From Mycobacterium sp. (GTDB lineage: Bacteria; Actinomycetota; Actinomycetes; Mycobacteriales; Mycobacteriaceae), in contig JAHFVB010000082.1 in assembly GCA_023264755.1 (NCBI GenBank), forward strand, positions 1,375-12,198: a DNA stretch of 10,824 nt. The letters run 5' to 3'. Below the pieces are notes generated by a model. The model saw nothing but the letters and a program-made list of their open reading frames with translations, searched no databases and was not told the origin of the DNA. This document shows, one piece after another, positions 3,639-9,614 of this stretch; the first letter of the stretch is position 1, and each line of letters opens with the position of its first letter. The position numbers and the translations under genes are program-made.

Positions 3639-4960
3639 TGACTGCGCCGAAGAGTCCGCCCGAGACCGTCGTCACGGTGGGCGGCGAAGACTGGGAAGCG
3701 GTGGTCAAGGCCGCCCAGGACAGTGCCGTCGCAGGCGAGCGCATCGTCGTGAACATGGGCCCGCAGCATCCGTCCACGCATGGAGTGCTGCGGCTCATCC
3801 TCGAGATCGAGGGCGAGACCATCACCGAGATCCGCTGTGGAATCGGCTACCTGCACACCGGAATCGAGAAGAACCTCGAGTACCGGACCTGGACCCAGGG
3901 CGTCACCTTCGTCACCCGCATGGACTATCTGTCCCCGTTCTTCAACGAGACGGCCTACTGCCTCGGGGTCGAGAAGCTGCTCGGTGTCACCGACGACATC
4001 CCCGAACGCGCCAGCGTCATCCGCGTCATGCTGATGGAGCTCAACCGGATCTCCAGCCACCTGGTCGCATTGGCCACGGGCGGAATGGAACTGGGGGCGA
4101 TGTCCGCCATGTTCTTCGGCTTCCTGGGGCGTGAGCAGGTGCTGTCGGTCTTCGAGACCATCACCGGCCTGCGCATGAACCACGCCTACATCAGGCCCGG
4201 CGGGCTGGCCGCCGACCTGCCGGACGAGGCGCTGCCGGAGCTCGAGGAGCTGTTGCGGACCATGCCCGCCAAGCTCGACGATCTGGAGAAGCTACTCAAG
4301 GAGAGCCATATCTGGAAGGCCCGCACCGTCGGGGTCGGCTACCTGGATCTGACCGGCTGCATGGCACTCGGCATCACCGGTCCCATCCTGCGTTCCACCG
4401 GGCTGCCCCACGATCTGCGGCGTGCCCAGCCCTACTGCGGTTACGAACACTACGACTTCGACGTCATTACCGACGATGCGTGTGATGCGTACGGCCGCTA
4501 CCTGATTCGGGTCGGTGAGATGAAGGAGTCGCTCAAGATCGTCCGCCAGTGCGTGGACAAGTTGACGACGCTCACCGGCCAACCCGTGATGATCACGGAC
4601 AAGAAGCTGGCCTGGCCCGCCGACCTCAAGCTCGGCCCGGACGGATTGGGCAACTCCCCCGAGCACATCGCGAAGATCATGGGCGGATCGATGGAGGCCC
4701 TCATCCACCACTTCAAACTGGTCACCGATGGCATCCGGGTGCCGGCCGGACAGGTCTACTCCGCGGTCGAATCGCCCCGCGGCGAGCTCGGCGTGCACAT
4801 GGTCAGCGACGGCGGCACACGGCCCTACCGGGTGCACTACCGCGACCCGTCCTTCACCAATCTGCAAGCCGTGGCGGCGATGTGCGAGGGCGGCATGGTG
4901 GCCGACGCAATCTCCGCGGTGGCGTCGATCGACCCGGTGATGGGCGGGGTGGACCGGTGA
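3638..4960 (+). CDS. nuoD: NADH-quinone oxidoreductase subunit D (49 kDa family)
   Basis: A 440-residue subunit, the same length as in M. tuberculosis, forming the quinone-reduction cavity with NuoB. The 49-kDa signature [10 protein letters not shown] occupies residues 40-49 with His48, and Tyr97 in T-R-M-D-Y sits 49 residues later; these correspond to the His/Tyr pair that contacts the quinone headgroup in the family. L-H-T-G-I-E-K is at 72-78, and the C-terminus D-P-V-M-G-G-V-D-R is the usual family ending. The fold descends from NiFe-hydrogenase large subunits but lacks their metal-binding cysteines. The ATG shares one base with the nuoC stop (TGATG) and has GGAGGT just upstream. Its own stop shares one base with the ATG of a 10-codon mini-ORF. 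Confidence 0.98.
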
Positions 4961-4992
4961 TGAGCGCTGGCGCGAGGAACGGGAGATCATGA
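4960..4992 (+). CDS. 10-codon coupling mini-ORF between nuoD and nuoE
   Basis: An ATG at 4960-4962 shares its A with the nuoD stop (TGATG), and the reading frame [10 protein letters not shown] ends in TGA at 4990-4992, overlapping the nuoE ATG (ATGA). The frame thus bridges exactly the 28-base gap between nuoD and nuoE. It also contains the nuoE ribosome binding site (GAGGAACGGGAG, 4974-4985). The peptide is too short to expect a folded product; the likely role is to keep ribosomes translating up to nuoE. Its 3' half resembles the end of the larger mini-ORF before nuoG. Translation is inferred from the double overlap and is not proven. Confidence 0.45.
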   Translation: MSAGARNGRS

Positions 4993-5750
4993 CGGTGGTA
5001 GAGCTGCGGCTGGGGCCGCGACCCGACGAACCAGGTCCGCCGATAACCCATGGCCCACAGTCCTATTCCGCCGAGGTCACCGCCCAGTTGGCCGCCGACG
5101 CGGCGCTGGTGATCGGCAGGTACCCCGAGCCACGTTCGGCGCTGCTACCGCTGCTGCACTTGGTACAGGCGCAGGACGGTTACCTGACTCCGGCCGGAAT
5201 CGCCTTCTGCGCCGAACGACTGAGGCTCAGCCCGGCCGAGGTCACCGCCGTCGCCACCTTCTACTCGATGTATCGCCGCACCCCGACCGGGGACTACCTG
5301 GTCGGAGTGTGCACCAACACCTTGTGCGCGGTGATGGGCGGCGACGCCATCCTCGAGGCACTCGAAGACCAACTCGGGGTGCCCGCCGGCGAGACCACCG
5401 CCGACGGCACGATCACGCTCGAACACGTCGAATGCAACGCGGCGTGTGACTACGCGCCGGTGATGATGGTCAACTGGGAGTTCTTCGACAACCAAACCCC
5501 GGCGTCGGCAAGGGCACTCGTCGAACGTCTCCAAGAAGGTTCAGTGGTGACACCGACTCGGGGTGCGCCACTGTGCACCTTCCGTCAGACCGCCCGCATT
5601 CTCGCCGGCTTCCCCGACGAACGACCCGGCGCCAACGACGGGGCGCCAGGAGCGGCCACGCTGGCCGGCTTGCGCATCGCGCACGAGCGCGGCCTGGCGG
5701 CTCCCACGCCGCCGACCGGCGCTGCGGCCGAGAACGGCGAGGCCAAGTGA
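4989..5750 (+). CDS. nuoE: NADH-quinone oxidoreductase subunit E (N1a 2Fe-2S subunit)
   Basis: A 253-residue, 24-kDa-type subunit of the NADH-oxidising module, about the length of M. tuberculosis NuoE. It has a helical N-terminal domain (about residues 30-95) followed by a thioredoxin-like domain holding the 2Fe-2S cluster N1a. The four ligands are Cys108 and Cys113 in V-C-T-N-T-L-C, and Cys149 and Cys153 in E-C-N-A-A-C-D. After residue 190 there is an actinobacterial C-terminal extension (R-G-A-P-L-C-T-F-R-Q-T, then Ala/Pro/Gly-rich) absent from shorter proteobacterial NuoE. The ATG at 4989 overlaps the mini-ORF stop and is preceded by GAGGAACGGGAG. The stop overlaps the nuoF GTG in a GTGA. 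Confidence 0.96.
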   Translation: MTVVELRLGPRPDEPGPPITHGPQSYSAEVTAQLAADAALVIGRYPEPRSALLPLLHLVQAQDGYLTPAGIAFCAERLRLSPAEVTAVATFYSMYRRTPTGDYLVGVCTNTLCAVMGGDAILEALEDQLGVPAGETTADGTITLEHVECNAACDYAPVMMVNWEFFDNQTPASARALVERLQEGSVVTPTRGAPLCTFRQTARILAGFPDERPGANDGAPGAATLAGLRIAHERGLAAPTPPTGAAAENGEAK

Positions 5751-7060
5751 GCCTCACCCCGGTACTCAGTGCCCACTGGGACGAACCGCAATCGTGGACG
5801 CTGGACACCTACCTGCGCCACGACGGCTATCGGGCGTTGACCCGGGCGCTGGCGATGAGCCCCGACGACGTCATCGCGTTGGTCAAGGACTCCGGCCTGC
5901 GGGGGCGCGGCGGGGCGGGCTTTCCCACCGGACAGAAGTGGTCGTTCATCCCGCAGGGCAGTGACGGCGCCGGCGCCAAGCCGCACTACCTGGTGATCAA
6001 CGCCGACGAGTCGGAACCCGGTACGTGCAAGGACATTCCGTTGATGATGGCGACACCTCACGTGCTCGTCGAAGGCGCCATCATCGCCGCGTACGCGATT
6101 CGGGCCAGGCACGCCTTCATCTACGTGCGCGGCGAGGTGGTGCCCGTGCTGCGCAGGCTGCAGGCGGCGGTGGCCGAGGCGTATCGAGCCGGGTACCTGG
6201 GCACCGACGTGCAAGGGTCTGGATTCGACGTCGACCTGGTGGTGCACGCCGGTGCGGGGGCCTACATCTGCGGCGAGGAGACCGCACTGCTGGATTCACT
6301 GGAGGGCCGGCGGGGCCAACCTCGGCTACGCCCCCCGTTTCCCGCGGTGGCCGGGCTGTACGCCTGCCCGACGGTGGTCAACAACGTCGAATCCATCGCC
6401 AGCGTGCCCGCGGTCGTGCGTGGCGGGGTGGACTGGTTCAAGTCGATGGGGTCGGAGAAGTCTCCCGGCTTCACGCTCTACTCGCTGTCGGGTCACGTCA
6501 CCACACCCGGTCAGTACGAGGCCCCGTTGGGCATCACGCTGCGCGAGCTACTCGACTACGCGGGTGGGGTGCGGGCCGGGCACCAGCTGAAGTTCTGGAC
6601 GCCCGGCGGCTCGTCGACCCCGCTGCTGACCGCCGAACATCTGGACGTGCCACTGGATTACGAGAACATGGCCAAGGTCGGTTCGATGTTGGGTACCAAG
6701 GCGTTGCAGATCTTCGACGAGACCACCTGTGTGGTGCGGGCCGTGCGGCGTTGGACGCAGTTCTACGCCCACGAGTCCTGCGGAAAGTGCACCCCGTGTC
6801 GAGAGGGCACCTACTGGTTGGCCCAGATCTACGCACGACTGGAGACCGGGCAGGCCAGCGCATCCGACGTGGAAAAGCTGCTCGACATCTCCGATGCGAT
6901 CTTCGGAAAGTCGTTCTGTGCGCTCGGCGACGGGGCCGCCAGCCCCATCATCTCGTCGATCAAGTACTTCCGCGACGAGTACCTGGCGCACCTCGACGGC
7001 GGGTGCCCGTTCGATCCGCACGCCTCGATGTTGGCAGCGCCCGAGGGGGTGGGCGTATGA
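5747..7060 (+). CDS. nuoF: NADH-quinone oxidoreductase subunit F (NADH/FMN/N3 subunit)
   Basis: The 437-residue catalytic subunit that oxidises NADH through FMN. The NADH-binding glycine-rich loop G-L-R-G-R-G-G-A-G-F-P-T-G is at residues 50-62, the FMN-region motif G-A-G-A-Y-I-C-G-E-E-T at 169-179, and the N3 4Fe-4S ligands are Cys345, Cys348 and Cys351 in E-S-C-G-K-C-T-P-C-R-E-G plus Cys391 in S-F-C-A-L-G-D-G-A. It is slightly shorter than the approximately 445 residues in M. tuberculosis. The GTG at 5747 overlaps the nuoE stop (GTGA); an AGG four to five bases upstream is a modest ribosome binding site, so coupling to nuoE matters. The stop is embedded in ATGA, where a 53-codon mini-ORF begins. 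The assignment is secure. Confidence 0.97.
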   Translation: MSLTPVLSAHWDEPQSWTLDTYLRHDGYRALTRALAMSPDDVIALVKDSGLRGRGGAGFPTGQKWSFIPQGSDGAGAKPHYLVINADESEPGTCKDIPLMMATPHVLVEGAIIAAYAIRARHAFIYVRGEVVPVLRRLQAAVAEAYRAGYLGTDVQGSGFDVDLVVHAGAGAYICGEETALLDSLEGRRGQPRLRPPFPAVAGLYACPTVVNNVESIASVPAVVRGGVDWFKSMGSEKSPGFTLYSLSGHVTTPGQYEAPLGITLRELLDYAGGVRAGHQLKFWTPGGSSTPLLTAEHLDVPLDYENMAKVGSMLGTKALQIFDETTCVVRAVRRWTQFYAHESCGKCTPCREGTYWLAQIYARLETGQASASDVEKLLDISDAIFGKSFCALGDGAASPIISSIKYFRDEYLAHLDGGCPFDPHASMLAAPEGVGV

Positions 7061-7218
7061 GTGGCACGCAGCGGGGTGGCACGCAGCTTCGCACGCAGCG
7101 GGGTGGCACGCAGCTTCGGCGCACGCAGCTCCGTCGAGTGTGCGAACCGATACGCGGGCCGCGGCGCGTTGCGGATGAAACCGCACACTCGGCGAGGAAT
7201 GGGGAGGGCGCAGCGTGA
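7057..7218 (+). CDS. 53-codon coupling mini-ORF between nuoF and nuoG, Arg-rich and repetitive
   Basis: The ATG at 7057 overlaps the nuoF stop (ATGA) and the TGA at 7216-7218 overlaps the nuoG GTG (GTGA), so this frame fills the 154-base gap between the two genes exactly. The 53-residue product is low in complexity: T-Q-R-G-G-T-Q-L-R occurs twice in tandem from residue 4, then R-T-Q-L-R-R, an unrelated middle, and a tail [10 protein letters not shown]. Eleven residues are Arg. No domain, signal peptide or membrane segment is visible, and a stable protein is doubtful. The nuoG ribosome binding site GGGGAGG (7201-7207) lies inside it. The arrangement matches what is known of MIRU elements in slow-growing mycobacteria, whose internal frames overlap their flanking genes. 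Translation is inferred. Confidence 0.5.
7064..7117 (+). repeat. Perfect 27-bp tandem repeat, two copies plus a partial third
   Basis: Bases 7064-7090 and 7091-7117 are identical. A partial copy follows, beginning GCACGCAGC at 7121. The core GCACGCAGC occurs five times, at 7064, 7079, 7091, 7106 and 7121, at intervals of 12 or 15 bases. The unit is nine codons, so gain or loss of a copy would keep the mini-ORF frame open. Such a repeat could vary in copy number among strains. Confidence 0.9.
7135..7191 (+). repeat. Cruciform/REP-like palindromic unit between nuoF and nuoG
   Basis: CGAGTGTGCG (7135-7144) and CGCACACTCG (7182-7191) form a perfect 10-bp stem. Within the loop, CCG (7147-7149) pairs with CGG (7172-7174) and ACGCG (7152-7156) with CGCGT (7165-7169), leaving an 8-base apex. 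The whole would fold as a long interrupted hairpin in the mRNA, or as a cruciform in DNA, just before the nuoG ribosome binding site. It resembles dispersed palindromic intergenic repeats, but copies elsewhere in the genome cannot be checked here. Confidence 0.75.
7201..7207 (+). promoter_or_regulatory. Ribosome binding site for nuoG, fixing its GTG start
   Basis: GGGGAGG sits 7 bases before the GTG at 7215. It lies inside the preceding mini-ORF and within the segment shared with the nuoD-nuoE element (CGAGGAAYGGG followed by AG). It supports 7215 as the nuoG start and lies just outside the 3' end of the palindromic hairpin, so it should remain accessible. Confidence 0.75.
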
Positions 7219-9614
7219 CCACGGCGGAAGACAAGGCCAACCCGACGACCGGCCAGCCGGACGTCGAGTTGGTGACGATCACCATCGACGACCACCAGGT
7301 CAGCGTGCCCAAGGGCACGTTGGTGATTCGGGCCGCCGAGCTCATCGGCATCCAGATTCCTCGCTTCTGCGACCACCCGCTACTGGAGCCCGTCGGGGCC
7401 TGTCGCCAGTGTCTGGTCGAGGTGGAGGGTCAGCGCAAGCCGATGGCCTCTTGCACCATCACCGTCACCCCCGACATGGTGGTGCGCACCCAGCTGACGT
7501 CGGAGGCTGCCGACAAGGCCCAGCACGGCGTCATGGAACTGTTGCTGATCAACCATCCGCTGGACTGCCCGGTGTGCGACAAGGGTGGCGAGTGCCCGTT
7601 GCAGAACCAGGCGATGTCCAACGGGCAGGCCGACACTCGCTTCACCGACGTCAAGCGCACCTTCCCCAAACCGATCAACCTGTCGGCGCAGGTGCTGCTG
7701 GACCGCGAACGCTGCGTGCTGTGCGCCCGGTGCACCCGGTTCTCCAACCAGGTCGCCGGTGACCCGTTCATCGAGCTCCTCGAACGCGGGGCGCTGCAGC
7801 AAGTCGGCATCGCCACCGACGAGCCGTTCGACTCCTACTTCTCCGGCAACACGGTGCAGATCTGCCCCGTCGGCGCACTGACCGGAACGGCCTACCGGTT
7901 CCGGGCCAGGCCCTTCGACCTGGTGTCCTCCCCCAGCGTGTGTGAGCACTGCGCATCCGGATGCGCCCAGCGCACCGACCATCGGCGCGGAAAGGTGTTG
8001 CGGCGCCTGGCCGGTGACGATCCCGAGGTCAACGAGGAGTGGAACTGCGACAAGGGACGCTGGGCCTTCACCTATGCGACCCAAGGCGACCGGATCACCA
8101 CGCCTTTGGTCCGCGACCCCGACGGCACGCAACGTCCCGCGTCGTGGTCGGAGGCCGTGGCCGTCGCCGTCGCCGGACTGACCGCTGCGCAGGGCCGGGC
8201 CGGGGTGCTCGTCGGAGGCCGCGCCACCCTCGAGGACGCCTACGGGTACGCGAAGTTCGCTCGAATCGTACTGGGCACCAACGACATCGACTTCCGCGCC
8301 CGACCTCACTCCGCCGAAGAGGCGGAGTTCCTCGCTCATGCCGTGGCGGGTCGCCCGTTCGCAGTGACCTACGCCGACCTGGAAGCGGCCCCGGCCGTGC
8401 TGCTCGCCGGATTCGAACCGGAGGAAGAGTCGCCGATCGTCTTCCTGCGCTTGCGCAAGGCCTTCCGCAAGCGCGGCCTGAAGGTGACGTCGATCGGCCC
8501 CTTCGCCACCCGCGGGCTGGCCAAGATGGGTGGCCGCCACCTCGCCACGGCGCCAGGTGGAGAAGCCGAGGCATTGCACGCACTTCACGGCGAGCTCGCC
8601 CCAGTCACCTTGATATTGGTCGGCGAACGGCTCGCGAGCTCACCCGGCGCCTACTCCGCCGCCGTGCGGCTGGCCGAGGCGACGGGAGCCCGGCTGGGCT
8701 GGATCCCACGTCGCGCCGGCGAACGGGGCGCCCTGGAAGCCGGTGCGGCACCGAACCTGTTGCCAGGTGGTCGCCCCCTGGCCGACCCGCGAGCCCGCCA
8801 AGAGGTCGCCGCTGGGTGGCACGTCGACGACCTGCCGGACGCACCCGGCCGGGACACCTCCGGCATCCTCGCCGCGGCCGCAGACGGAACCTTGCAGGCG
8901 CTGCTCGTCGGTGGTGTCGAACTGAATGACCTACCCCACCCCGCACGTGCTCTGGCCGCCGTCGCGGCTGCCCCCTTCGTCGTGAGCCTGGAATTGCGGC
9001 GCAGCGCGATCACCGAACGCGCGGACGTCGTCTTCCCAGTCGCCCCGGTCACCGAGAAGGCCGGCACGTTCGTCGATTGGGAGGGCCGTCCCCGACCCTT
9101 CGAGCCCGCGCTGCCACCGAACGCCACCGCGGACGTCCGGGTGCTGGCCGCGCTGGCCGACGAGGTCGGCATCGACCTGGCCCTGCCCGACGCCGCCGCG
9201 GTGCGGGCCGAACTGGCCAAGCTCGGCAGTTGGCAGGGCCGTCCAGCCGCCGCCCCGGACACCGGCCCGGCCCAGCAGGCCCGACCGGCGGTGGGGCAAG
9301 CGGTGCTCACGGGCTGGCGAATGCTGCTGGACGCGGGCCGGTTGCAGGACGGGGAACCCCACCTCGCCGGGACCGCGCGCCGGCCGGTCGTACGACTCTC
9401 CGAGTCCACCGCCGCCGAGATCGGGGCCACCGAGGGGGAACCGGTCACCGTGAGCACACCGACGGGCGCGATCTCGCTACCGCTGGAAATCACCGACATG
9501 CCCGCCCGCGTGGTGTGGCTGCCGCTGAACTCGCCCGGCTGCACCGTCGCCACCACGCTCGGCGCCTCGGTCGGCGAGCTCGTCACGATCGCTCCGGGAG
9601 CCGAACTCGCATGA
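7215..9614 (+). CDS. nuoG: NADH-quinone oxidoreductase subunit G (multi Fe-S subunit with N7 site)
   Basis: The largest subunit, 799 residues, in the NADH module. Its N-terminal ferredoxin-like part carries N1b (Cys52, Cys63, Cys66, Cys80), then N5 with the His-type ligand set (His114, Cys118, Cys121, Cys127), then N4 (Cys167, Cys170, Cys173, Cys217). A further set, Cys243, Cys246, Cys250 and Cys278 (C-x2-C-x3-C-x27-C), forms the N7 cluster site found only in some bacteria such as E. coli and Thermus. The remainder is a molybdopterin-oxidoreductase-like domain that needs no cofactor in this family, ending with a small beta-rich domain near residues 710-799. The GTG at 7215 overlaps the mini-ORF stop and has GGGGAGG 7 bases upstream. 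The stop overlaps the nuoH start (ATGA). Confidence 0.97.

Follow-up and report, generated by a model that had tools for sequence, protein, structure and literature searches.

The nuoF-nuoG junction and its insert

The stretch of DNA analysed here, 10,824 nucleotides long and hereafter called the window, comes from a mycobacterial assembly of 636 contigs (4.75 Mb, 70% complete) and contains the nuo operon (nuoA to nuoH region). We found that nuoF and nuoG, which lie 154 nt apart from the nuoF stop codon to the nuoG GTG, are joined by a mini-ORF sharing 4 nt with each of them (Table 1), as an earlier note on this DNA had described. The nuoD-nuoE gap is also spanned by a mini-ORF (positions 4957-4992, 11 codons and a stop, with GTGA and ATGA overlaps), and nuoE and nuoF overlap directly (GTGA, 5747-5750).

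Table 1. Features of the nuoF-nuoG region (window positions)
Feature	Position	Strand	Remarks
nuoF	5747-7060	+	terminal ATGA (7057-7060) shared with the mini-ORF start
Bridging mini-ORF	7057-7218	+	53 codons and a stop
Direct repeats	7064-7090, 7091-7117	+	two, identical, each of 27 nt (9 codons)
Type ii palindrome	7132-7194		imperfect; arms 7132-7144 and 7182-7194, 92% complementary
SD-like GGAGG	7203-7207	+	7 nt 5' of the nuoG GTG; putative role
nuoG	7215-9614	+	GTGA start shared with the mini-ORF stop

The insert combines a repeated unit with a palindrome. A third copy of the 27-nt unit, 78% identical, is found at 7106-7132, and since the unit equals nine codons its duplication preserves the reading frame. 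The palindrome, whose arms are 13 nt long, was typed by its motif as a member of a family designated here type ii. The earlier note had suggested that the insert may be a MIRU analogue; as an identity for the window's insert this was rejected by the typing, the palindrome being of another family. In genome searches for the block, which the note had proposed, type ii palindromes proved to be dispersed and present in 27 of 98 genomes. The 5' part of the insert (7057-7135) has matches in three of the 98; one is the window's own genome, and in each of the remaining two the match spans just 38 nt. The window's genome holds four more type ii copies by BLAST, all of them partial, and the strict type ii pattern matches solely the window's own copy there. 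No Rfam family was detected above threshold in the window. At another place in the same genome (locus L002, around 1500-1640) GC-rich tandem DNA comes directly after one of the partial type ii copies; at the window the order is reversed, with the GC-rich tandem stretch preceding the type ii copy.

When the window's insert was shuffled 3000 times with its dinucleotides preserved, 60% of the shuffles stayed open at the same length and phase, and about 20% with the phase free. For this locus alone, it is thus a weak argument to say that bridging of both genes is unexpected for a random insert, and we rejected it, the chance of such a frame being about 20%. The window's frame is unremarkable by itself and becomes strong evidence once relatives are compared.

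Inserts at the junction in related mycobacteria

We collected 210 loci (30, plus 80 named, plus 100 further), yielding 209 junctions, as one locus (L008) is without nuoG and shows nuoF followed by a partial palindrome and then by other DNA near the contig end. We read 109 of the junctions as empty: in 88 the genes overlap by 4 nt, and in 21 the start is at +2 or +3. Another 30 hold 5-44 nt, 69 hold at least 45 nt and one is unclassified. The earlier note had asked whether an empty ATGA or GTGA junction is ancestral; empty junctions do exist in relatives, and the window's own was probably once a 4-nt overlap of this kind. Two of the junctions scored as empty (L115 and L188) carry a type i palindrome that is read through in frame and seems to extend NuoG at its N-terminus; they were so scored because their only start is at the nuoF stop.

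Since the locus sets overlap in species, counts were made on distinct inserts. The 69 long inserts reduce to 60 distinct ones, and to 59 after omission of L139, in which the frame from the nuoF stop meets no stop in the stretch and the nuoG start is ambiguous. By short motifs, these comprise 32 type i inserts (GCGAGCAGAC...GTCTGCTCGC), seven of type ii, 12 MIRU-like and eight others; the MIRU-like label is our assumption, its motifs having been read from the junctions of relatives rather than from MIRU records. At least three insert types thus occupy the nuoF-nuoG junction. Removal of duplicate and short rows left 187 distinct ones of the 209 for a tree, on which parsimony requires at least 42 changes between empty and non-empty states. 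The window's sister L007 (support 0.98) carries a type i insert, unlike the type ii of the window, and 10 of the 16 tips in the clade around the window have an empty junction. Type ii is seen here in either direction, the window and L022 being opposite to L030 and L121.

When the named nuo loci (660,013 bases) were scanned for motifs, all 10 type i matches fell at nuoF-nuoG, and the MIRU motif was found five times there and nine times elsewhere (some 5' of nuoH, some intragenic). The strict motifs matched no type ii copy in these loci, so that the scan is uninformative on this type. In L067, L071, L077 and L090, MIRU-like units lie between nuoG and nuoH, directly 5' of nuoH, and in L090 they are in tandem.

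Phase of the inserts

A start codon is present at the nuoF stop in 56 of the 59 distinct inserts. Read from it, the mini-ORF ends within -10 to +14 nt of the nuoG start in 52 of 56, whereas the two alternative frames of these inserts give 10 and 13. An exact 4-nt overlap is seen in 36 of 56, against 2 and 11. With MIRU-like inserts excluded, 46 of 46 bridge (9 and 9 in the other frames), and of 37 cluster representatives 35 do so (9 and 8). Stop codons within the inserts number seven in the bridging frame and 26 and 24 in the others. The pattern described for the window, in which a junction that overlaps in most relatives has gained an insert with a frame bridging both genes, recurs repeatedly in relatives. 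Broken frames beside an intact nuoG, which the earlier note had named as a refuting outcome, were sought as well: seven of the 59 inserts do not bridge from the nuoF stop, four of them MIRU-like with a start at that site and three without a start there. If the start is allowed to lie as much as 22 nt further downstream, 57 of 59 bridge and two do not.

The nuoG start was picked by distance, favouring a start followed by A, and the same choice was applied to shuffled inserts. In 300 shuffles of the 59 inserts, exact overlaps averaged 22.8 (maximum 32) and near ends 31.2 (maximum 41), compared with 36 and 52 observed; with the phase free, the means fell to 11.1 (maximum 21) and 17.7 (maximum 27). 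In two pairs of junctions, where the first member lacks a palindrome and the second has one, the length difference is 72 nt (L161 and L135) and 60 nt (L145 and L016), in frame in both cases, with the polarity of the change not proven.

Could the open frame be a mere by-product, GC-rich palindromic DNA being usually open and nuoG being read from its own SD? The chance figure of about 20% for the window agrees with this, and the element itself contributes to openness, as 75% of the frames through 27 type i copies at other sites are open (at nuoF-nuoG, 26 of 29 are open in the bridging frame). Moreover, an SD-like tetramer precedes nuoG in all 59 inserts by a loose definition and in 28 of 59 under stricter criteria, so that nuoG might be translated independently. 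Against this explanation stands the bias of 52 in 56 towards a single phase, and none of nine palindromes in other co-directional junctions (47 loci, with genes called heuristically by ORF length and GC3) is bridged. Bridging therefore looks like a trait of the coupled nuoF-nuoG junction rather than of the element, as judged against a small control with heuristic gene calls. We regard the by-product explanation as unlikely, although it is the strongest of the rivals.

A general target-site duplication as the origin of the double overlap was unsupported, 146 of 2000 permutations reaching the observed value. In L155, L162, L164 and L180, 13-16 of 16 nt agree upstream of the mini-ORF and nuoG starts, as might be expected after a target or tandem duplication that included the SD and the start.

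Palindromes and AbiEi-like/Vsr-fold nucleases

The window palindrome is a member of a dispersed family whose copies are found as inverted repeats on either side of genes for AbiEi-like/Vsr-fold nucleases, of which there are several paralogues per genome. We divided 82 nuclease loci into a closest subfamily (14), a middle group (51) and a distant one (17). The type ii motif occurs on both flanks in 12, 2 and 0 of these, and the type i motif in 0, 1 and 9, respectively, by a loose test that finds some motif in 25 of 246 control windows. Of the 82 loci, 25 have a strong hairpin upstream, 21 have one downstream and 12 are flanked by hairpins on both sides, against 1 of 82 intragenic controls and 0 of 81 further out. 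Three loci (L307, L314 and L319) have like palindromes of still other sequences on both flanks. In the window's genome, a type ii palindrome lies upstream of the start of a nuclease gene that runs off its contig. Alignment of flanks as inverted repeats placed 11 of 35 above the 95th percentile of controls, a poor control since the flanks of other nucleases carry the same palindromes.

A second subfamily of these nucleases is flanked by a second palindrome family, type i, whose copy number goes with the presence of that enzyme. For the type i nuclease, 30 loci have a hairpin upstream in 26, downstream in 16, on both sides in 14 and on either in 28, and the type i motif on both sides in 15 and on either in 24; three control windows per locus gave none, windows cut by contig ends being scored as none. 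Exact type i copies occur in 49 of 60 genomes, with a median of 10 per genome in the 43 that encode the type i nuclease and 0 in the 17 that do not (Mann-Whitney p = 2.8e-6, not corrected for kinship). With six less complete genomes omitted (41 with and 13 without the nuclease), p is 5.5e-5, likewise without correction for kinship. There are three exceptions: G050 holds 14 copies although no type i nuclease is matched in it at E ≤ 1e-40, and G011 and G015 encode the nuclease but lack exact copies. In the window's genome, both the type i nuclease (at E ≤ 1e-40) and exact type i copies are absent.

The protein associated with the palindromes is modelled as an AbiEi-like N-terminal domain joined to a Vsr-type nuclease domain of the PD-(D/E)XK Vsr/homing fold. 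A Foldseek search of the PDB with the nuclease gave no match at E ≤ 0.001; its model displays the Vsr-like catalytic fold. E181, E185, D218, H235 and D245 occur in 62 of 62 aligned relatives and D229 in 59, as columns of alignment A1 without a residue-level match to a solved active site. To our knowledge, no activity has been reported for palindrome-flanked nucleases of this kind. The open-licence literature, subscription papers being mostly outside the scope of the search, yielded nothing joining them to such palindromes, and a literature search by sequence letters gave only unrelated papers among the matches listed. A Vsr-like MTES_1575 domain is named in PMC3710099.

Alternatively, the palindromes beside the nuclease genes could be operators bound by the AbiEi-like domain and not mobile, which would make the nuoF-nuoG copy a regulatory site. 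The AbiEi-like N-terminus would suit such a role, as would the greater frequency of type i hairpins upstream than downstream (26 against 16 of 30). However, inverted copies also lie downstream, copies are dispersed in the genome, and junctions exist both with and without a copy. Operators are, in our judgement, improbable, and an AbiEi-like/Vsr-fold enzyme that mobilises the palindrome is probably the better account.

Comparison with known systems

For translational coupling the nearest precedent is MIRU, and for the combination of palindrome and enzyme it is REP with TnpA-REP. MIRU (Supply et al. 1997) is described as a short repeat at a start codon with an internal ORF coupled to the next gene at a spacing of -4 nt (as summarised in PMC12548453). 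The window's ATGA and GTGA overlaps share this coupling geometry, whereas the window's insert consists of a palindrome and 27-nt repeats without MIRU-like motifs, and at nuoF-nuoG several types of element obey one rule at one junction. REPtrons comprise dispersed palindromes, adjoined by a conserved GTAG, that are tied to a nuclease gene (PMC8266576). Dispersed palindromes and an associated nuclease gene are found here too, but the palindromes are about 60 nt long, unlike REP, and the associated enzyme is not a HuH (Y1) transposase: its model joins an AbiEi-like N-terminus to a nuclease domain of the PD-(D/E)XK Vsr/homing fold. In contrast to the Vsr-like homing endonuclease I-Bth0305I (catalytic domain, PDB 3r3p), the nucleases described here are flanked by palindromes and occur as several paralogues per genome. 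Rickettsia palindromic elements are palindromes in frame with coding DNA inside genes; retention in frame is alike here, between two coupled genes rather than within genes. For M. tuberculosis, PMC2267715 gives a table of stem-loop families.

Origin and persistence of the insert

Taken together, we consider the insert to be a nuclease-associated palindrome that has persisted since it preserved the coupling of nuoF and nuoG, a reading to which we assign a probability of about 0.7. The junction before insertion was probably a 4-nt ATGA/GTGA overlap, into which a short palindromic element would have entered and been enlarged by an in-frame 27-nt duplication. Ribosomes leaving nuoF would re-initiate on the mini-ORF, translate it, terminate beside the SD-like GGAGG and re-initiate on nuoG; judging from the sequence, the mini-ORF probably hands them over in this manner. 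A bridging frame would keep the coupling and would not leave a GC-rich stretch untranslated within the operon. Thus, the insert would persist because its open frame starts in the nuoF stop and ends in the nuoG start, under what may be selection for the frame, and the peptide itself would be irrelevant, as different element types encode different peptides at the same place.

Two further explanations fare worse. That the palindrome is a regulatory RNA hairpin setting the NuoF:NuoG ratio through processing, stability or attenuation is very improbable: its complementary 13-nt arms do lie inside the transcript, but more than 100 of the 209 junctions are read as empty, the element type changes even between sisters, and the insert has no surplus RNA stability for its composition (z -0.05). 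A functional peptide is the least credible of all, for despite an open frame with a start, a stop and a nearby SD-like site, it would be the product of a repeat and a palindrome, the sister L007 has an unrelated insert, and most junctions (109 of 209) were scored as empty.

Beyond this locus, we lean slightly towards a mycobacterial REPIN-like system in which each Vsr/homing-fold, AbiEi-like paralogue would maintain and spread its own palindromes of about 60 nt, only copies that rebuild a mini-ORF surviving at translated junctions such as nuoF-nuoG. The preferred reading would extend the MIRU rule, to insert and stay coupled, to elements that are not MIRU-like in a core respiratory operon, and it names a candidate enzyme for dispersed mycobacterial palindromes. 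The junctions also offer many natural variants for studies of translational coupling. In five genomes (G012, G032, G124, G155 and G169), we also observed a second nuoF homologue, with about 83% identity to the NuoF of the window.
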